From Thermoproteota archaeon (lineage in GTDB: Archaea; Thermoproteota; Thermoprotei_A; EX4484-217-1), in NCBI GenBank assembly GCA_029258915.1, contig JAPDJU010000013.1:1-33260 (forward strand): a DNA stretch of 33,260 bases, in the 5' to 3' direction. Positions 16,241 through 26,135 of this stretch are shown here, in pieces. The position numbers and the translations under genes were made by a program. The number at the start of each line of letters is the position of its first letter. Position 1 is the first letter of the stretch. The notes under the pieces were generated by a model. It was not told the origin of the DNA. It ran no database searches and saw only the letters and a program-made list of their open reading frames with translations.

Positions 16241-18460
16241 GTGGCCATATTGGGCAAGGTATTTACAATATTTCTACTTCTTCTCGTCACATTTGCAGCT
16301 ATAATTCACATTACATACTATCATGTTTTAACTGTTGAAGGATACTATACAGTAACAATTACTGCTGAAAAACCTTTAGAAAACGTAGTATTAGAACTGC
16401 CTGTTACAGAAGACAATAAGCCTATCTATAAAATTAAGGAAATGACATGCATAGTGAGGTCTAATGGTTATGTAAGAGAGGTAAAGCCTGAAGTAATGGA
16501 CACTATTGATGGATACCCTAAAACAATATCCATACCTATTAGCGGAGAAGGTAAGTTTAATATTGTAGGGAAATATGTTTTAGAAGAAGAAAAACTCATA
16601 GACTACAGCAAGCATCCATGGACCCTTACAATAGATTCAGAAAAATATGAAGTACCCGTTTACATAGAAAGAGACATTACCGCACAAGTAATTTACGTTG
16701 TAAAAGAAAACTCACCAGTACTCATACCTTCACTAGGCATACTAACAGGACTATTCGGAGGGCTTTCACTATTAAGTCTGCTTAAAGGAGTATTGTTCCA
16801 GCCAAAACCACCAATCCTTGCCGAGAAACCTAAGAAAAAATGTCCTAAATGGTGTAATGTTTGTGTAAACTTCTTCAAAATAGAGCAAGGTTCTCAAACA
16901 GGTAAACAACTACCTAAACCTTACATCGATAAGCTAATGAAATTACTGCTTAACGTTAACGAGACCTGGAAAAAATGCTGTATAAAATTTATCCCATGCA
17001 TAGACAGCAAAGGTAATATTGTAGCTAAATATGTTAACCCAGACAGCGACATAACATATGCAACTGCAGGAGGAAAAATCATTATTGGAAGATATAAGAT
17101 AGATTTTAAGATTGTTAGAAAACTTAAGCTTAAAGACCTCTTCAAAGACCCTAACTCTACCAGGTTAGAGGTAAGTGAAAGCAAGGTAAATGCTCCATAT
17201 AAGGAGAAACTAGAAGCAACATGGAAAGAAGATACTGAGTATAAAAGAGTTAAATATAAGGCTGGAGATAAAATTCCAAACGAAATAGTTGATGAAATAG
17301 TTAAAAAAGGATTAGAAATTATAGATAAAAAGTTAAAGAAAAAAGGACTATCTGAAAGTGAGAAGCAAAGACTTCTTAAACTAAAGAAACTATACGAGTA
17401 CCTATCTAAAATAATTAAAGAAGAAAACATTGTTAAGAGAGGAAAAGTCCCAGTTATAGATGCTCTTAAAGGTATTGAAAAATTAAAAAACACTCATCTT
17501 AGCAAATGTATTAACGTATTCATAGTTAAAGAATACGAAGACGTAGCAAAAAAAGGAGAAGAAGGAGGATGCGGCGAATTCCCTGGAAGAATAACAATAA
17601 TTGAGGAAAAAGTTGTTAAAGAAAACATACCTAACCTGTTAGCCCATGAGTTCGGACATAACCTAAATTTAGGCCATGTCCCACCAGACCCCCAAAAACC
17701 TAACTTAATGGAAACACCCATCAAAGGCAATAATTTAACCAAAAAGCAATGTAAAAAAGCATTTGAAAACTGTATGAAAGACAAACGTAAACATTTTAGT
17801 GAAAAAACATGCCATGAAGGACTCAAGTACTTAAGAAAACTAGAACTTTTCAGAGAAATAGAGAAACTAAAGAAGGAAAATAAAGAAATCGATAAACAAG
17901 TTAAGAAACTTAGAAAAAGCAAAGAGGAAGTAGACAAACAGATAGAAGATCTTAAAGAACAAATAAAATCTGAAGAGGAAATGTTAAAGAAAGAAAAAGC
18001 ACTGCTTAAAAAAGTATCTTCTACAGCAAAGAGAGCAAAAAGATACAAAGACATTATAAGAACCAAGAAAGGAAGAAGGAAAAGATATGCTGAGAAAAGC
18101 CTAGACAGAATGGAATCCAGGCTTGAAAAAGATATTGAAAGACTAAAGGGCAAATTGGAAAAAGCAATTAAAAGAAATAGGGAGAAAGAAGTTAAAGAAC
18201 TTGAAAAGAAAATAGGAGAAAAAGAAGCTCTCCTAGAAGCTGTAAGAGACCCTGAAGCCACGCTTAAAAAATACTCTGAAAAAGTTAAAGCACTTGAAGA
18301 AGAAATTGGAAAGCTAAAAGAGAAGTTAAAAGAGTATGAAAGTAAAGCCCCGGAACTTAAAAATAAAATAGACAATAAAATAAAAGAGCTAAGGAATAAG
18401 CTAAACAATAATAAAAACAGAATAAACAAGCTTGAAAAAGAAATAAAAGAACTTAGATAA
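16241..18460 (+). CDS. Membrane-anchored metzincin-like zinc metalloprotease with C-terminal coiled coil
   Basis: 739 residues. A membrane helix at 8-28, a beta-rich domain to about 155, a second helix at 158-186, then a basic Cys-rich linker (KPKKKCPKWCNVC, 197-208). HEFGHNLNLGH at 469-479 is a metzincin zinc motif (HExxHxxGxxH) with Asn in place of the central Gly, and NLMETP at 488-493 supplies the Met-turn. From about 536 to the end it is an almost unbroken Lys/Glu coiled coil of 200 residues. Positive-inside rule places the protease domain and coiled coil in the cytoplasm. GTG at 16241 is the first start after a stop. Substrate unknown; neighbours give no hint. Confidence 0.75.
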   Translation: MAILGKVFTIFLLLLVTFAAIIHITYYHVLTVEGYYTVTITAEKPLENVVLELPVTEDNKPIYKIKEMTCIVRSNGYVREVKPEVMDTIDGYPKTISIPISGEGKFNIVGKYVLEEEKLIDYSKHPWTLTIDSEKYEVPVYIERDITAQVIYVVKENSPVLIPSLGILTGLFGGLSLLSLLKGVLFQPKPPILAEKPKKKCPKWCNVCVNFFKIEQGSQTGKQLPKPYIDKLMKLLLNVNETWKKCCIKFIPCIDSKGNIVAKYVNPDSDITYATAGGKIIIGRYKIDFKIVRKLKLKDLFKDPNSTRLEVSESKVNAPYKEKLEATWKEDTEYKRVKYKAGDKIPNEIVDEIVKKGLEIIDKKLKKKGLSESEKQRLLKLKKLYEYLSKIIKEENIVKRGKVPVIDALKGIEKLKNTHLSKCINVFIVKEYEDVAKKGEEGGCGEFPGRITIIEEKVVKENIPNLLAHEFGHNLNLGHVPPDPQKPNLMETPIKGNNLTKKQCKKAFENCMKDKRKHFSEKTCHEGLKYLRKLELFREIEKLKKENKEIDKQVKKLRKSKEEVDKQIEDLKEQIKSEEEMLKKEKALLKKVSSTAKRAKRYKDIIRTKKGRRKRYAEKSLDRMESRLEKDIERLKGKLEKAIKRNREKEVKELEKKIGEKEALLEAVRDPEATLKKYSEKVKALEEEIGKLKEKLKEYESKAPELKNKIDNKIKELRNKLNNNKNRINKLEKEIKELR

Positions 18461-18606
18461 AGAAAAAGTTAATTCAAAAAGTAGGAAAGAATAACAGTTT
18501 ATTTTCTACACAGAAACCATTAGCCAGACTTCGTTATTTAAAATGAACTCTATCACGAAATGTTAAAATTAATGCTTCCCATAGTAGAGAAATGGAGAAA
18601 TAAGGA

Positions 18607-19011
18607 ATGAGCATTCATAAGTCTGAAGTTGAAGTTCTTAAGAGAAGATCTTTAGAATTCCTAGAAGAATCCAGAGTCGCGTTAAGAAGAGGCTCATATG
18701 ATGTAGCATGTTTTTTAGCTGAACAATCTCTTCAACTATATCTAAAACATTCTTTACTTAAAATTGTAGGTGATTATCCTAGAACACATAGTATAAGGAG
18801 ATTGCTAGGTGAACTCAACAGAGTTTTAAAATTTAAGGAACTTGAAGAATTTATTAGAGCTAATAGAGCAAGACTTTCAGCACTTGAAGATGCATATTTA
18901 ATGGCTAGGTATTTTATAAAAGAATACAGCAAAGAAGACGCTAAGGACATGGTGGAGCTAGTTGAAGAAACATTAAAGATGATCGATAAGGCAATAGGTG
19001 AAGAGAAATGA
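18607..19011 (+). CDS. HEPN-domain protein (toxin of a HEPN-MNT pair)
   Basis: A 134-residue all-alpha HEPN protein: SLEFLEESRVALRRGSYDVA then CFLAEQSLQLYLKHSLL and RTHSIRRLLGEL, with DAYLMARYF near the end, as in the Pfam HEPN family. The stop overlaps the nucleotidyltransferase start by four bases (ATGA). Known HEPN-MNT systems use HEPN as a ribonuclease toxin that the MNT partner inactivates, in some cases by adding AMP. A clear RX4-6H catalytic motif is not obvious, so activity is uncertain. Confidence 0.8.
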   Translation: MSIHKSEVEVLKRRSLEFLEESRVALRRGSYDVACFLAEQSLQLYLKHSLLKIVGDYPRTHSIRRLLGELNRVLKFKELEEFIRANRARLSALEDAYLMARYFIKEYSKEDAKDMVELVEETLKMIDKAIGEEK

Positions 19012-19355
19012 GCAATTACATTGATACTTCACTGCTTAGAGTAAAAATGCTTAAAGAATGGAAAACATGGGTTCAAAAAATAGCTGAAACCGTGAAAGAA
19101 TTAGTACCTAATGTTCAAGTCTACGTTATAGGAAGTGTTGTTAGAGGAGATTACGTAGCCGGAAGCGACGTAGACGTTTTAGTAATATCTCCAAACATTC
19201 CTGAAAAAATGATTAAAAGAGGAGAAATAAAGGCAGAAATTGAGGAAAAACTTAACCTACCATACTACCATCCTTTCGAAATACATATACTAAGACCTGA
19301 AGAAGCAAAGCCCTACCTTAAGAAAATAGGAAAATACGTATTCAAAGTATTGTAG
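19008..19355 (+). CDS. MNT-type nucleotidyltransferase (antitoxin of HEPN-MNT pair)
   Basis: A 115-residue minimal nucleotidyltransferase. VIGSVVRGDYVAGSDVDVLV is a complete GSX10DXD motif with the two metal-binding aspartates, and HPFEIHILRPEEAKPYLKKI supplies the third-acid region. The overlap with the HEPN gene shows co-translation. It most likely neutralises the HEPN protein. Confidence 0.85.
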   Translation: MSNYIDTSLLRVKMLKEWKTWVQKIAETVKELVPNVQVYVIGSVVRGDYVAGSDVDVLVISPNIPEKMIKRGEIKAEIEEKLNLPYYHPFEIHILRPEEAKPYLKKIGKYVFKVL

Positions 19356-19408
19356 TAAACATATTTAAATCTGTGTTATTTTGACTATATATATGAAAGG
19401 TGTATTAT

Positions 19409-19636
19409 GTGAGTAGTGTTACTATTAGTGTTAGAATATCTAAGAAGCTTAAGGAGAAGATAGATAAGTACGGGATAAAGATAAGTGAAGTTGTTAGAAA
19501 AGTTCTTGAAGAAGAAGTTAGGAAAAAAGAGTTAGAAGAAGTTACTTTAGCTGCTAAGGAGCTTAAAGAGTTCTTTTCAAAAATACCTGATGAGGAAATA
19601 GTAGAAACTATTAGAGAATATAGGAGGCACAGATAA
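19409..19636 (+). CDS. vapB: VapB-type antitoxin, ribbon-helix-helix
   Basis: About 75 residues. SSVTISVRISKKLKEKIDKY is a ribbon-helix-helix DNA-binding start, followed by ISEVVRKVLEEEVRKKELEE and an Arg-rich tail (REYRRHR) that should bind the toxin. GTG at 19409 is chosen because AGGTG lies 6-7 bases upstream; GTG at 19400 overlaps that RBS. The stop touches the VapC start. DTATAT-like AT-rich sequence at 19385-19394 probably holds the promoter. Confidence 0.8.
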   Translation: MSSVTISVRISKKLKEKIDKYGIKISEVVRKVLEEEVRKKELEEVTLAAKELKEFFSKIPDEEIVETIREYRRHR

Positions 19637-20891: not shown

Positions 20892-20949
20892 ATAAAACAA
20901 GTTTTCTTCTGATATTGGCTCTCTTTATCTTATATATGTGTTTTTAGGA

Positions 20950-20994
20950 AAAATTATTTATATGGTGCACTTTCTATTAAGAATAGGTGCACCA
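20950..20994 (+). promoter_or_regulatory. Promoter and paired GGTGCAC operator of the metal ABC operon
   Basis: A TATA-like TTATTTATATGG (about 20954-20965) is followed by TGGTGCAC (20963-20970) and GTGCACCA (20987-20994). The two form a perfect 8-base inverted repeat with a 16-base spacer, and each half contains the palindrome GTGCAC; the centres are 22 bases apart, two helix turns. The second site also covers the GGTG ribosome-binding site of the ATG at 20998. This is the layout of a metalloregulator operator (DtxR/MntR-like), though the regulator is not in the window. Confidence 0.55.
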
Positions 20995-20997
20995 TCA

Positions 20998-21948
20998 ATG
21001 AGGCACGTAAAAACCACTTTATTCATCATAATCTTACTGGCAGCATGCATGTTCTCTACAGCATTACATGTTCATGCATCGTCTACAGATAAACCCATAG
21101 TAGTTACTACAACAACAGTTCTTGAAAGCATAGTAAAAGACCTTGCAGGCGACAAAGTATCTGTAATAGTTATCGCATCACCGGCAATATGCCCTGCACA
21201 CTACGATGTACGTCCAAGCGATGTAGAAGCATTTAGAATAGCTGATCTAATTTTAGCTCATGGATTTGAACCTTGGATTGAAGATTTAAAGAAAGCGTCA
21301 GGTTCGGAAGCTCCAATAGTTTATATTAAAGGCCCATGGAACATGCCCGGTCCTTTAAAGCAGAGATATAGTGAAGTTGCTGACGCTATTGAGGAACATT
21401 TAGGTATAAGCGTGTCAGATAAGCTTAGCAAGTCTTTAAGCAAAATAGATGAGGTTAAACAGTGGCTTCAAAGATTCGCTGAAGAACACGGTTTCAAAGA
21501 CACCCCTGTAGTTTCTATGCTATGGCAGAAAAGTTTCATTTCATTCCTCGGGTTCAAAATCGTTGCCGTATATAGGTCTCCTGAAATGGTTTCAGCTAAA
21601 GAATACAGTGAAGTAGTAGAGAATGCAACAAAGTATGGTGCGGTCTTAGTAATAGATAATTTGCAAAGCGGTGTAGAGTTAGGGGAGAAAATAGCTAGCG
21701 AAGTAGGTGCAGTAGAAGTTGCTTTAACAAACTTCCCTAGAACAGCTCCTGGACTAAACAATGTAACTGAGGTTATGAAGTATAATGCTAAGCTACTAGC
21801 TAAAGCACTTGAAGAAGCAACAGCCATGAAGGAGAAAACCATACTTGAAAGGGAAATGAGTTTCTGGAGAAACACAACATACATTCTCACGGTACTGGTT
21901 ATTGCGTTGGGATTAACTCTAACCTACATAGTATTGAGGAAAAGGTGA
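20998..21948 (+). CDS. ABC transporter metal-type substrate-binding protein (ZnuA/TroA-like), membrane anchored
   Basis: 316 residues: a signal-anchor/signal peptide (residues 5-27), a TroA-like two-lobe domain, and a C-terminal membrane helix (about 291-313, TYILTVLVIALGLTLTYIVL) that holds it on the outer face. Ligand-type motifs CPAHYDVRPSDVE (His68) and LAHGFEPW (His88) match the first two metal histidines of the family. The third, normally a His in an HDAF-like motif, is Trp176 in MLWQKSF. ATG 20998 has GGTG upstream and removes a poor N-terminal extension. First gene of the operon behind the paired operator. Metal identity is open. Confidence 0.8.
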   Translation: MRHVKTTLFIIILLAACMFSTALHVHASSTDKPIVVTTTTVLESIVKDLAGDKVSVIVIASPAICPAHYDVRPSDVEAFRIADLILAHGFEPWIEDLKKASGSEAPIVYIKGPWNMPGPLKQRYSEVADAIEEHLGISVSDKLSKSLSKIDEVKQWLQRFAEEHGFKDTPVVSMLWQKSFISFLGFKIVAVYRSPEMVSAKEYSEVVENATKYGAVLVIDNLQSGVELGEKIASEVGAVEVALTNFPRTAPGLNNVTEVMKYNAKLLAKALEEATAMKEKTILEREMSFWRNTTYILTVLVIALGLTLTYIVLRKR

Positions 21949-21956
21949 AGTGACTA

Positions 21957-22382
21957 GTGGTTTTCGGCCTAAGCCTTGAAGAAACGGCTAAACTTCATGG
22001 ACACAAAGGACCATGGCTAGTACTAGGCTATAGAGCAGGTAAACGGGCTAGGAAAATACTTAACCCCTTAAGCGAACATGATCTCTACTGCGTAGTTTAC
22101 GTACCATTGAAAACACCATACACGTGCATTATAGATGGAGTACAGGGGTCAACAAGCTGCACGTTAGGTAAGCAAAACATCGAAATTAAGGAGTCGAGCG
22201 CAGATAATATAAGAATAGTTTTCGTTAAACGTAAAACTTCAAGAAAATTGGAAATGAAACTTAAAGAAAACGTAGAAGAGGAAATAAACAAGCTATACGA
22301 GAAATACGGACTGAGTAAAGCAGCTAAATGGGTTGAAGGAGAAAAACTATGCAACCTATTCGAGGAGAAGCTGTACGATTAG
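21957..22382 (+). CDS. FmdE-domain metal-binding protein
   Basis: A 141-residue FmdE-like protein. KLHGHKGPWLVLGYRAGKRA matches the family's (F)HGHxCPGLxLGYRA motif, but Gly replaces the Cys. IDGVQGSTSCTLGKQNIEIK is the second conserved part with Cys66. FmdE proteins bind zinc or other metals and sit beside molybdenum/tungsten enzymes. Here the gene is between the binding protein and ATPase of an ABC operon, GTG start with GGTG, its end overlapping the ATPase gene. A metal store or chaperone for this importer is a fair guess. Confidence 0.75.
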   Translation: MVFGLSLEETAKLHGHKGPWLVLGYRAGKRARKILNPLSEHDLYCVVYVPLKTPYTCIIDGVQGSTSCTLGKQNIEIKESSADNIRIVFVKRKTSRKLEMKLKENVEEEINKLYEKYGLSKAAKWVEGEKLCNLFEEKLYD

Positions 22383-23056
22383 AAAATGTTTGGATTACAT
22401 ATTCTGGTGCTGGAAAACCAGCTATAAGGAACATTAATCTATCGATACCTTTCGGAGTACTTACCCTAATCAGAGGACCTAATGGTGCAGGGAAAACAAC
22501 ACTTATTGAGACATGTCTAGGACTACTTAAACCCATTAAAGGTAACGCATACCTATTAGGCGTTAATACTAAAGATGAGCGCATATTTGAAGTAAGGAGG
22601 AAATGTAGTTATGTACCACAGGACTTCATGAAACCCCCTTATGAGCATTATACAGCTAAGAAAGTAATAGAAATGGGCCTATCAAGTAATAGAGTAATAA
22701 CAGACCCTTTACCCGACTATTTCCAATACGAACTAGAATTTTATGCTAAAGAATTAGATGTACTTAGTTTACTTGAAAAACCAATAGGCATATTGAGTGG
22801 TGGTCAACAGCAGAAAGTATTCATAGTAAGAGCGCTGATTAGGAGACCTAAACTACTTTTCCTAGATGAACCATTTTCAAGTCTCGATAAGGAGTCAAGA
22901 GAGAAAGTTACGGAAATAGTTGTAAATTACATTAAGAAACATAGGGGTTCTTCAGCAATTATAGTTAGCCACTCCTTTAGCAAAATTGAAGAATATGCGG
23001 ACATTATCGTGACCATAAATGATGGAGTAATAACTGATATTAGGTTTCAAAGGTAG
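22349..23056 (+). CDS. ABC transporter ATPase, ZnuC-like
   Basis: A 235-residue ATPase with all motifs intact: Walker A RGPNGAGKTTLIE (about 42-54), Q-loop YVPQDF, signature LSGGQQQKVFIVRAL, Walker B KLLFLDEPFSSLD and H-loop IIVSHSFSK. It resembles the ATPases of metal (zinc/manganese) ABC-3 importers and lies between FmdE and the permease, 6 bases before the latter. Overlap with FmdE is 34 bases. Confidence 0.88.
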   Translation: MQPIRGEAVRLENVWITYSGAGKPAIRNINLSIPFGVLTLIRGPNGAGKTTLIETCLGLLKPIKGNAYLLGVNTKDERIFEVRRKCSYVPQDFMKPPYEHYTAKKVIEMGLSSNRVITDPLPDYFQYELEFYAKELDVLSLLEKPIGILSGGQQQKVFIVRALIRRPKLLFLDEPFSSLDKESREKVTEIVVNYIKKHRGSSAIIVSHSFSKIEEYADIIVTINDGVITDIRFQR

Positions 23057-23062
23057 ATAACT

Positions 23063-24046
23063 ATGCTGTTAATGATTCCCTTGCTAGGCGCTTTGCTTAG
23101 TGGTTTTATCTGTGGTATGCTTGGATACTATGTTCAAAGGTATGGTGTTACAACATTAAGTTTCACAATAGCGCACTCCGCATTAGCTGGCGCTGCAATA
23201 TCTCTTGTTCTAGGATTTAATACTACGCTGTTCACACTATTCTTTGCTGTAGCATCAGCTTTACTCATAGGCTATTTAACAAGTAAATCACCTATAAGGC
23301 GTGAGCTAATTTGCATGGGCCTATTCTCCTTATTAAACGCAGTAGCTATTCTAATGCTCTACATGTCAAGCACCAACGTACTATCCACAGTACAGTTATC
23401 AACCATACTATGGGGTAGTGTACTAGCAATAACTTGCGAGAAAATAATTGCCATAGTGACTATAGCAGCGACTTTTCTAGTATATGCTGTAATTTTTAAG
23501 CCGCAAATAGATGCAATACTTTTTGATCAGAAATTAGCTGAAGCAGAAGGAGTTAATGTAAAATTGCACAGTACAATACTTCTACTCTTTGTAGGCTCAG
23601 CAATAGCCATAATCCTTAGAATAACAGGCGGTTTCCTTGTTTTCTCTCTACTGTATAACCCTGTTGCATCGGCTTTACTATTGTCAAAGAGAGCAAATAT
23701 TCAGCAACTAATTTCACCTATACTAGGAAGCAGCGTTGCAATTGCAGGTCTTTTCGCTAGTTTCATGTATAACTTACCTGTTGGAGCATCAATAGCTCTA
23801 CTATCATCAGTTACTCTTCTACTATCTTACGTTTCAAGAGTTACGATAAATTACATGCTAGCACAGCGAAGCGTACGGAGCAAAGAAGGTATTGGGGAAG
23901 CTTTTACCGTTCACCTAAACCGTGTCCTCATCTATCAAAATGTATCAGACACTGTTAGGTTCATTACAGTCCCCGCTGAGCTACCTACGGGAACAGGGCT
24001 CCCCTCAGAAACCCAGCGGTCACCAATAAATTTATTAGATTCATAA
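23063..24046 (+). CDS. ABC-3 type metal permease, ZnuB-like, with foreign C-terminal tail
   Basis: 327 residues with about eight membrane helices and the family's central pattern (LSFTIAHSALAGAAISLVLG, LWGSVLAIT, AEAEGVNVKLHS, TGGFLVFSLLYNPVASALLL). Membrane helices end near residue 263 (VTLLLSYVSRVTINYM). The last 47 residues, from about 281, are read antisense through the relic transposon end described at 23906-24047, so this tail is not of permease origin. The core should still be able to transport. Last gene of the operon. Confidence 0.85.
   Translation: MLLMIPLLGALLSGFICGMLGYYVQRYGVTTLSFTIAHSALAGAAISLVLGFNTTLFTLFFAVASALLIGYLTSKSPIRRELICMGLFSLLNAVAILMLYMSSTNVLSTVQLSTILWGSVLAITCEKIIAIVTIAATFLVYAVIFKPQIDAILFDQKLAEAEGVNVKLHSTILLLFVGSAIAIILRITGGFLVFSLLYNPVASALLLSKRANIQQLISPILGSSVAIAGLFASFMYNLPVGASIALLSSVTLLLSYVSRVTINYMLAQRSVRSKEGIGEAFTVHLNRVLIYQNVSDTVRFITVPAELPTGTGLPSETQRSPINLLDS
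23906..23964 (-). ncRNA. Solo TnpB guide-RNA-like stem-loop (copy B)
   Basis: Minus strand: ATGAAC (23959-23964), left arm ACCTAACAGTGTC (23948-23960), loop with TTTGATA, right arm GACACGGTTTAGGT (23913-23926), then GGTGAACGGT (23906-23915). The arms pair with one bulge/mismatch region. From TTTGATA to GGTGAACGGT the spacing (17 bases) and the final ten bases equal copy A. It lies inside the 3' end of the ABC permease gene, on the other strand. Confidence 0.5.
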
Positions 24047-24198: not shown

Positions 24199-24390
24199 AC
24201 CGTTCCTCCCTAGGTGGTCATTTCAATTATTTTATATAAGTTCATGATCACACCTAGGGGTTCCACCTCGCCCATAGGGATTTAGGTATCCCTATGGGGT
24301 CATGGGTGGCATTCGTCTCCAACGGCATGGGAGACACATCTACGTTACTTCCTGCGGAGTTCGGAGCATGGCTCCCATCACCCCGCAGGG
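24199..24390 (-). ncRNA. Candidate omega/re RNA scaffold at the 3' end of tnpB (contains copy C)
   Basis: Known TnpB guide RNAs start in the last part of tnpB and end in the right end of the element. Here, on the minus strand, I see GGAGC/GCTCC and TCTCC/GGAGA hairpins near 24310-24375, a perfect 10-base stem TCCCTATGGG/CCCATAGGGA pattern (24271-24280 with 24289-24298, loop 8), then copy C: GGAACC (24259-24264), arm CCTAGGTG (24251-24258), loop, arm CACCTAGG (24209-24216), GGAACGGT (24199-24206). The guide would read onward from 24198 to lower numbers. Transcription is not shown. Confidence 0.55.
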
Positions 24391-25507
24391 CTTTGAAAAG
24401 CAAGTTCCAGCAAGCAACAGCATCTCGATGCCAAAATTCTCCTCCCTTACTACACTTACCAATCCTAGAACCATTACTGTAGGTTATTGGAGCATTGTGA
24501 ATTGGGCATAGTTTTGATGTATTCCTTGGATTAACATATATTACTGGTACGCCATACTCTCTAGCCTTTTCCTCTATTGCCCTCTGAATACCTCTGAAAC
24601 TCGCTTGAAATATCCTATGACGTAGCTGTTTATCCTTTATCCTCTTTATCATGTTATTAGCTACATGTTTACCCAACTTCTCAAGAACTATGGCATATTG
24701 TTTCTCATAGGCAGTCTTAACGATTATGTTAGCTATCTTCCATTTAATATCAAGTTTCTTTTTCCTCTCCTTTAGTTTCCTCACAGCCTTCCTCTTAATC
24801 CTAGATTTCTTACCATATAATTTATCGTATTTTTCCTGAATCCTTTTCCTACGGTAATAGTATCCGAGTACGAGCTTCTCAGTATTGGTTTCAAAGAGGA
24901 AGGTTAAGTTATCAACTAGTACGGTAACATTGTTTTCGTTAACGTCAACTGGTATGTAGCCCCTAGGCTTATACTCTTCAACCTCTTTAATGAAAGATAG
25001 GTAGATAACTAACTGTCTACTCCTCTTATCAAGCTTTACCTTAGTTTCACTAGCTAGCTTCCAACCACAATTAATGTATTTCCAATACTGTTTATGAGGT
25101 TCAAAGTCCACTGTTATCCATCCCTTGTGGGTAACCACCTTGATCGATGTTAGCCCATTAGGCTTCCATAGGTGGTTGTCAAGCCAGATACTGACCTTCC
25201 TAACCTCTGGGTAATCACTCTCAGCTAGTCCTAGTTTCTTTAACCGTAAGAAGCTCCTAACCCTAGTACTAGCGTCTTGACATGCCGTGTAGACGTAGTG
25301 TGAAGGTAGTTGAGGGTAGAGACCCCTCATTTCACGGTACTTTAATGCTTTGAGCCTAGTGAAGCTCCTAATACTATTTCTAACAGCGTATATTACAAGT
25401 TGTTTGACCATATTACGATACATACCTTCAAGCTCAACGAAGACTCCGAATATCCTTCTAGTTAACTTAATGCTCCTAACTATGACTATTCTAACTACTC
25501 TAGTCAT
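24254..25507 (-). CDS. tnpB: TnpB of the IS607 element (RNA-guided nuclease family)
   Basis: 417 residues. RuvC residues are Asp188 (YIPVDVNENNVTV), Glu276 (YAIVLEKLGKHVA) and Asp362 (FWHRDAVACWNLL). The zinc-finger region is the crenarchaeal variant SKLCPIHNAP ... GKCSKGGEFWHRD, with C334, H337 and C352 and no fourth cysteine. After the RuvC domain a 45-residue tail (RGDGSHAPNSAGS and on) is encoded by the structured DNA that should also give the guide RNA. Its ATG overlaps the end of tnpA. Relatives cut DNA at guide-matched sites and help the element persist. Confidence 0.88.
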   Translation of the reverse strand: MTRVVRIVIVRSIKLTRRIFGVFVELEGMYRNMVKQLVIYAVRNSIRSFTRLKALKYREMRGLYPQLPSHYVYTACQDASTRVRSFLRLKKLGLAESDYPEVRKVSIWLDNHLWKPNGLTSIKVVTHKGWITVDFEPHKQYWKYINCGWKLASETKVKLDKRSRQLVIYLSFIKEVEEYKPRGYIPVDVNENNVTVLVDNLTFLFETNTEKLVLGYYYRRKRIQEKYDKLYGKKSRIKRKAVRKLKERKKKLDIKWKIANIIVKTAYEKQYAIVLEKLGKHVANNMIKRIKDKQLRHRIFQASFRGIQRAIEEKAREYGVPVIYVNPRNTSKLCPIHNAPITYSNGSRIGKCSKGGEFWHRDAVACWNLLFKALRGDGSHAPNSAGSNVDVSPMPLETNATHDPIGIPKSLWARWNP

Positions 25508-26135
25508 TCTTCTTTACCTCTTGCAGTAACTGCTTAAAACCTTGAATGAGCTTCTTTTTCTTATGACTCCTCATACCGTAGAGCTTGCTAGCAAATGAAG
25601 TAACTATTGCTAGTAAGTCCTCTACTAGTTCTTGGTAAGCGTCTTTAGGCTCCTCGCCATAGACAACTTCGATTTTGGCACCGCACTGCTTAAAGAAGTA
25701 CTCTAGGTACTCAAAGCCAAACCTTGTCAATCTATCCTTATAGGTAATGACAACTACATCTACTTGTTTGTTTACTACATAGTTGAAGAGTTTCATTAAG
25801 CCTCTACGATTAGTTTTCAATCCACTAGCTACATCACTTAGGACATCTACTACTTTATAGCCTTTAGCCATGCAGTATTGAGTTAAGTACTCTATCTGTC
25901 TTTCTAGGTCTTTTCTCTGGTCTGAGGAGCTAACACGAGCATATATGATTGCTCTAATTTCCCTTGTCACTACTCCGCTTAATAGTCTCTTTACTTCGCT
26001 TTCTGGTATACGGTATTTTCCTCCAAGTGTCCGTACTGCTCTTATCCTCCCCTCCTCAATCCATCTACGAAGAGTAACATAACTAACACCAAGAAGCCTA
26101 CAAGCCTCCTTAGGTCTCAGCAAACGTTCGCTCAT
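25500..26135 (-). CDS. tnpA: TnpA of the IS607 element (MerR-HTH serine recombinase)
   Basis: 211 residues. A MerR-like helix-turn-helix (LRPKEACRLLGVSYVTLRRW, residues 6-25) is followed by a serine-resolvase domain with the catalytic YARVSSSDQRKDLERQ (Ser near 69-71) and VVITYKDRLTRFGFEYLE, the standard IS607 arrangement. TTTATATAGG at about 26167-26176 (minus strand) is the likely TATA box. It looks complete. Confidence 0.9.
   Translation of the reverse strand: MSERLLRPKEACRLLGVSYVTLRRWIEEGRIRAVRTLGGKYRIPESEVKRLLSGVVTREIRAIIYARVSSSDQRKDLERQIEYLTQYCMAKGYKVVDVLSDVASGLKTNRRGLMKLFNYVVNKQVDVVVITYKDRLTRFGFEYLEYFFKQCGAKIEVVYGEEPKDAYQELVEDLLAIVTSFASKLYGMRSHKKKKLIQGFKQLLQEVKKND

Follow-up and report, generated by a model that had tools for sequence, protein, structure and literature searches.

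A predicted membrane-anchored archaeal zinc protease with a metzincin-type active site and a putatively cytosolic catalytic side

We analysed a 33,260-nt stretch of DNA from a Thermoproteota archaeon of a hot environment (hereafter, the window) and found that its 739-aa open reading frame (ORF) with a GTG start, at 16241..18460 (+), is a real gene, present in one copy in its own genome. The product is probably a zinc endopeptidase anchored in the membrane, from an archaeal family that appears to be undescribed; its catalytic side is predicted from the sequence to face the cytosol. The gene is kept at full length in its relatives, and all full-length members read in the same order: transmembrane segment (TM), outer domain, TM, Cys-rich segment, variable insert, HExxH domain and helical tail. 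In the window, these features lie as follows.

16241..18460, + strand: whole gene, 739 aa, GTG start; ORF with full-length homologues L003/L005, L053, L007 and L008.
16259..16315, + strand: TM1, residues 7-25, with a positive N-terminal flank and the N terminus predicted inside; hydropathy 2.54, likewise in four homologues.
16331..16708, + strand: inter-TM domain, approximately residues 31-156, predicted outside; from the alignment, with invariant Y122, P126 and W127 and no conserved Cys.
16718..16774, + strand: TM2, residues 160-178, followed by a Lys-rich stretch, the chain predicted to be back inside; hydropathy 1.95, and 1.8-2.5 in four homologues.
16841..17026, + strand: conserved Cys-rich segment, residues 201-262, with invariant C201, W204, C208, F211, F212, W243, C246, C247 and C253.
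17027..17497, + strand: basic insert, residues 263-419, of variable length and poor conservation in the alignment.
17507..17740, + strand: catalytic core, residues 423-500, with C423, the edge-strand region GRITIIEE, HEFGHNLNLGH (469-479) and NLME (488-491); invariant residues and metzincin matches.
17750..17812, + strand: helical segment after the Met-turn, with C504, C511 and C524; C504 is invariant in all members, and L007 and L008 also have three Cys nearby.
17843..18457, + strand: basic helical C-terminal tail, residues 535-739; heptads strong at 535-604 and 661-730, with a weaker basic linker between.

Homologues were sought by a protein search of 398 genomes of the phylum, then by a profile search of the same 398-genome sample, and by profile searches of the gene's own class (229 genomes), the class of genome G236 (40 genomes) and the class of genome G128 (256 genomes). 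These yielded four further full-length homologues and one frameshifted copy, spread over three archaeal classes of one phylum. The closest is a 739-aa ORF (L003/L005; 85% identity) in Desulfurococcales archaeon ex4484_217_1, of the same genus, followed by L053 in G646 (36%) and by L007 in G128 and L008 in G236 (25% each). The frameshifted copy, L009 in G276 (L046 8764-10524, on the 1-Mb contig G276:C1), is split over three frames and represents either a pseudogene or sequencing errors. Carrier genomes number 3/229 in the gene's own class, 2/40 in the class of G236 and 1/256 in the class of G128; the gene is therefore rare and patchy. Locus L043 was left out because its reverse strand bears what reads as an archaemetzincin-type HEIGHNLGLKHC motif. 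We rejected a viral or plasmid origin, as searches of viral contigs, plasmids, phages and PHROGs gave no match.

Residues invariant in the five full-length sequences include, besides those listed above for the Cys-rich segment, C423, H469, E470, G472, H473, H479, N488, M490 and C504 in the catalytic part. The invariance of H469, E470, H473, H479, M490 and seven Cys holds at identities down to 22-25%, a level of conservation that, judged from the alignment, exceeds chance. As all these His, Glu, Met and Cys residues are invariant, the protease assignment rests on more than one motif. The Cys noted originally in the linker and near the active site are present in the window protein (201, 205, 208, 246, 247, 253, 423, 444, 504, 511 and 524, with one more, 70, in the outer domain), and the seven invariant ones are among them. 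The insert and the tail vary in length among members, the tails of L007 and L008 being shorter (112-120 aa from a comparable start). The outer domain spans ~125 residues, is strand-rich by inspection and keeps Y122, P126 and W127 in the five-sequence alignment. It has no Pfam match and a sole PDB match at E 0.93, and was not found outside its own family among 247 relatives. The claim that no described family has this domain order agrees with our searches: none of the curated models in Pfam, NCBIfam, PHROGs or PADLOC covers this arrangement, and open-licence papers yielded no comparable family of intracellular, cytosolic or cytoplasmic metzincins.

The zinc motif is HEFGHNLNLGH in the window protein and HEFGHNLGLDH in L003, the other four copies reading HELGHNLGLDH, HEVGHNLSLGH, HEVGHVLGLGH and HEVGHILSLGH. 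Downstream, N[LV]M is found in all six copies; M490 lies 11 residues past H479 in the window protein, the turn itself being read from sequence. The metzincin motif has been written HExxHxxG/NxxH/D, with Asn placed in lower pappalysins (PMC12237041). This motif, with N or G, is present in the window protein, L003, L053 and L008, while in L007 and L009 the G/N position is Ser, with all three His kept. The original prediction had pointed to Asn at the central Gly as unusual. The Asn is indeed present but is no hallmark: across the six copies the position reads Asn/Gly/Gly/Ser/Gly/Ser, and even the sister species L003 carries Gly. As Ser occurs in two members, the position is simply tolerant in this family, and we rejected Asn, private to one of six copies, as a family-defining feature.

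A homologue search with the protease domain alone partly bore out the proposed kinship. Against PDB sequences, the catalytic-domain profile matched the archaemetzincin 2x7m best (E 0.0017), followed by snake venom metalloproteinase, MMP-12, fragilysin and karilysin; among the 60 PDB matches listed, nearly all were metzincins, with IrrE (8slm) as the one clear exception. Pfam M10, M43, M12B and M66 models matched all five members with weak scores, and Matrixin was the best peptidase model for the L007 and L008 domains. The window catalytic domain scored 17.3 bits against Pappalysin M43, under its gathering score of 23 bits. DUF2268 (PF10026) was the only curated family reached, over residues 424-492 (23.6 bits, gathering cut-off 23.6); depending on the construct, the window protein scored 23.6-27 bits, at or just over this cut-off, which only it and its sister reached. 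The score was 17.8 bits for L053, and only two of the first four members matched at all.

In profile-profile comparison with other archaeal metzincins, scores were strong but confined to approximately residues 450-495, a stretch running from the active-site helix as far as the Met-turn; this helix and the edge-strand region align with metzincin profiles. The description as metzincin-like thus holds for an active site with a long zinc motif and Met-turn, which appears from these matches to be of metzincin type, but the similarity spans this short region only. A putative N-terminal (upper) subdomain, which in metzincins has a five-stranded sheet and a backing helix, was not detected by profile, the Cys-rich segment scoring 12.7 against a column-shuffled median of 10.7 and top values of 14-17. 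Deleting the insert, or fusing the Cys-rich segment with the core, left most Pfam matches no longer than before, and attempts to extend the metzincin match by insert deletion or profile-profile alignment gave nothing convincing. By eye, 'VCVNFFKIE...PKPYIDKLMKLLLNVNETWKKCCIKFIPC' in the Cys-rich segment resembles a backing helix flanked by two strands, and residues 201-262 may possibly supply strands one and two of a metzincin upper subdomain, with the backing helix between them.

Metzincins are mostly exported or secreted enzymes, as the original prediction had stressed; in Archaea there is precedent against this generalization in the archaemetzincins, which are soluble, cytosolic and not exported, and the genome studied here encodes a separate true archaemetzincin. 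Both predicted membrane segments recur, with two hydrophobic segments in each of the five full-length members. We set TM1 as N-in because the N termini are short and positive. Summed over four members, the 15-residue TM flanks predicted to be inside have a charge of +8, and those predicted to be outside one of -2; the flanks of the fifth, L053, look alike by inspection, and those of L007 TM2 are ambiguous taken alone. This consistent bias supports the predicted placement of the N terminus inside, the small domain outside, and the catalytic part and coil inside. A protein disulfide oxidoreductase (PDO) is encoded in the same genome (206.7 bits, over the family cut-off), making cytosolic disulfides plausible; Crenarchaea are rich in these, with PDO as the presumed catalyst (PMC3177088). 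The conserved interior Cys could form either disulfides or a structural metal site.

Within the tail, residues 535-604 and 661-730 have a strong heptad bias of ~0.6-0.85, compared with 0.38 for the 95% level of the shuffles; in the basic middle, around 591-660, the bias drops to about this level or lower. Given this strong-weak-strong pattern, two segments, perhaps a hairpin, fit better than a 200-residue rod. The coiled coil predicted earlier is therefore retained as two strong segments, not as one uniform coil over 535-739. Matches to SMC, PspA and similar proteins were rejected as due to coiled-coil composition; the ATPase-family matches in NCBIfam were of SMC/Rad50 type only, all on the coiled coil. 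A defence role was also rejected, since PADLOC matches of the window protein fall solely on the tail.

Among known membrane-anchored zinc proteases facing the cytosol are FtsH (M41) and HtpX (M48), FtsH having two TMs around a small outer domain. The window protein differs in lacking an AAA ATPase and in its zinc motif; the analogy is one of layout, with no homology found and no FtsH, M41 or AAA-protease match in Pfam or NCBIfam. Archaemetzincins (MEROPS M54, AfAmzA; 2x7m, 3zvs) are likewise archaeal and share a long zinc motif with Met-turn and Cys near the active site, whereas the window protein adds TMs, outer domain, insert and coil. Their fingerprint is HC-x4-C-x-M-x17-C-x2-C (PMC3427221). 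We rejected M54 membership, as HExxHxxGxxHCx4CxMx17CxxC is absent and no member has Cys right after the third His. Pappalysins (M43), described as secreted zymogens (PMC6949598), resemble the window protein in the Asn at the Gly position of their lower members, and each of the five catalytic domains gives a weak M43 match. Matrixin-like (M10) proteins from other Thermoproteota genomes (L058, L061, L063, L066 and L067) share a membrane segment, a metzincin motif with Met-turn and a C-terminal helical segment. They differ in having one TM, a protease predicted outside and no outer beta domain, and they do not share the same set of conserved Cys; the profile match of the window family to them is limited to the active site. 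Three further loci in other Thermoproteota (L065, L070 and L072) have a metzincin motif in the reverse order, with an N-terminal coiled-coil-like stretch, a TM and a protease predicted outside.

In the arrangement we favour, TM1 and TM2 would hold the small domain on the outer face, and the chain would return to the cytosol, where it would form a Cys-stabilised, metzincin-type catalytic domain carrying a large basic insert and a helical coiled-coil tail. Three His would bind zinc, with Glu470 as general base and the Met-turn beneath the zinc; zinc binding and activity are predictions. As a guess, substrates would be cytosolic or membrane-proximal proteins, brought in by the coiled coil or held in an oligomer, and the outer domain would be an anchor or a sensor; target, sensing and oligomer are guesses alike. 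A speculative and rather improbable extension is that, in a family of transmembrane metzincins, the outer domain reads a state of the envelope and thereby switches a protease that is cytosolic, stabilised by disulfides and equipped with a coiled-coil arm for substrates or oligomerisation; this would give Archaea an ATP-independent proteolytic signal running from outside to inside. Since metzincins are familiar chiefly as exported enzymes, a family anchored in the membrane with its active site inside would widen the working range of the fold. Some Thermoproteota would gain an additional kind of membrane-bound, cytosol-facing zinc protease, and the invariant Cys set would be a clean test case for cytosolic disulfides or structural metal in such an enzyme.

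The catalytic domain could instead lie outside, if TM2 does not cross the membrane or the topology is inverted, which would make the protein one more archaeal metzincin anchored in the envelope, its disulfides being extracellular. In favour of this, most other metzincins are exported, the profile search also picked out the predicted exported, single-TM metzincins with a C-terminal helical tail, and the seven invariant Cys, all in the catalytic part and none in the outer domain, would suit an outside location. However, each of the five sequences has a strongly hydrophobic TM2 followed by Lys/Arg, the short positive N termini place TM1 N-in, and with PDO present cytosolic Cys pairs need no export; we regard an outside location as unlikely. 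It is also rather doubtful that the protein is a zincin but not a metzincin, that is, an HExxH protease broadly akin to DUF2268 and IrrE, with a third His and a Met that only mimic those of metzincins. In favour of it, the highest-ranking Pfam peptidase model for the window protein is the general Zn-protease model DUF2268, the PDB matches listed include IrrE 8slm, and the upper subdomain escapes profile detection. Against it, every copy retains the canonically spaced third His and the Met, L053 stays under the DUF2268 cut-off, and Matrixin is best for L007 and L008. Least probable is a catalytically dead or structural membrane coiled-coil protein keeping a zinc site for stability: the invariant general-base Glu and three His would not be required for purely structural use, even if the variable Gly position (N/G/S), the K/E-rich tail, the rarity of the gene and the frameshifts in the G276 copy would fit it.

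Neighbouring genes differ in every lineage examined: DHH and HEPN/MNT genes in the window, UDG and an HTH-like protein at L044, a CBS domain and an ABC transporter at L046, and genes read as 2-oxoacid oxidoreductase subunits at L053. There is hence no conserved operon, and we rejected a function derived from one. Directly downstream in the window (18607-19355) lies a HEPN (PF05168) and nucleotidyltransferase (MNT) pair, a toxin-antitoxin-like module, whose copies are shorter in L003 (105 and 97 aa versus 134 and 115 in the window). Identity between the window and L003 is a mosaic: ~63-76% at the gene's 5' end, 98-100% over 16901-17200, 83-95% over 17200-17800, and 95-100% over 17750-19527, which takes in the end of the gene and the HEPN/MNT pair; a syntenic block elsewhere has 78%. 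This reflects either recombination between species or a chimeric metagenome contig. Also in the window, near the zinc protease gene, 20938-24046 encodes a ZnuA-like binding protein, an FmdE-like protein, an ABC ATPase and an ABC-3 permease, a probable zinc or metal uptake operon. At 24254-26135, a resolvase with a MerR-type HTH lies beside a TnpB/Cas12f-like gene, forming an IS607-like element.
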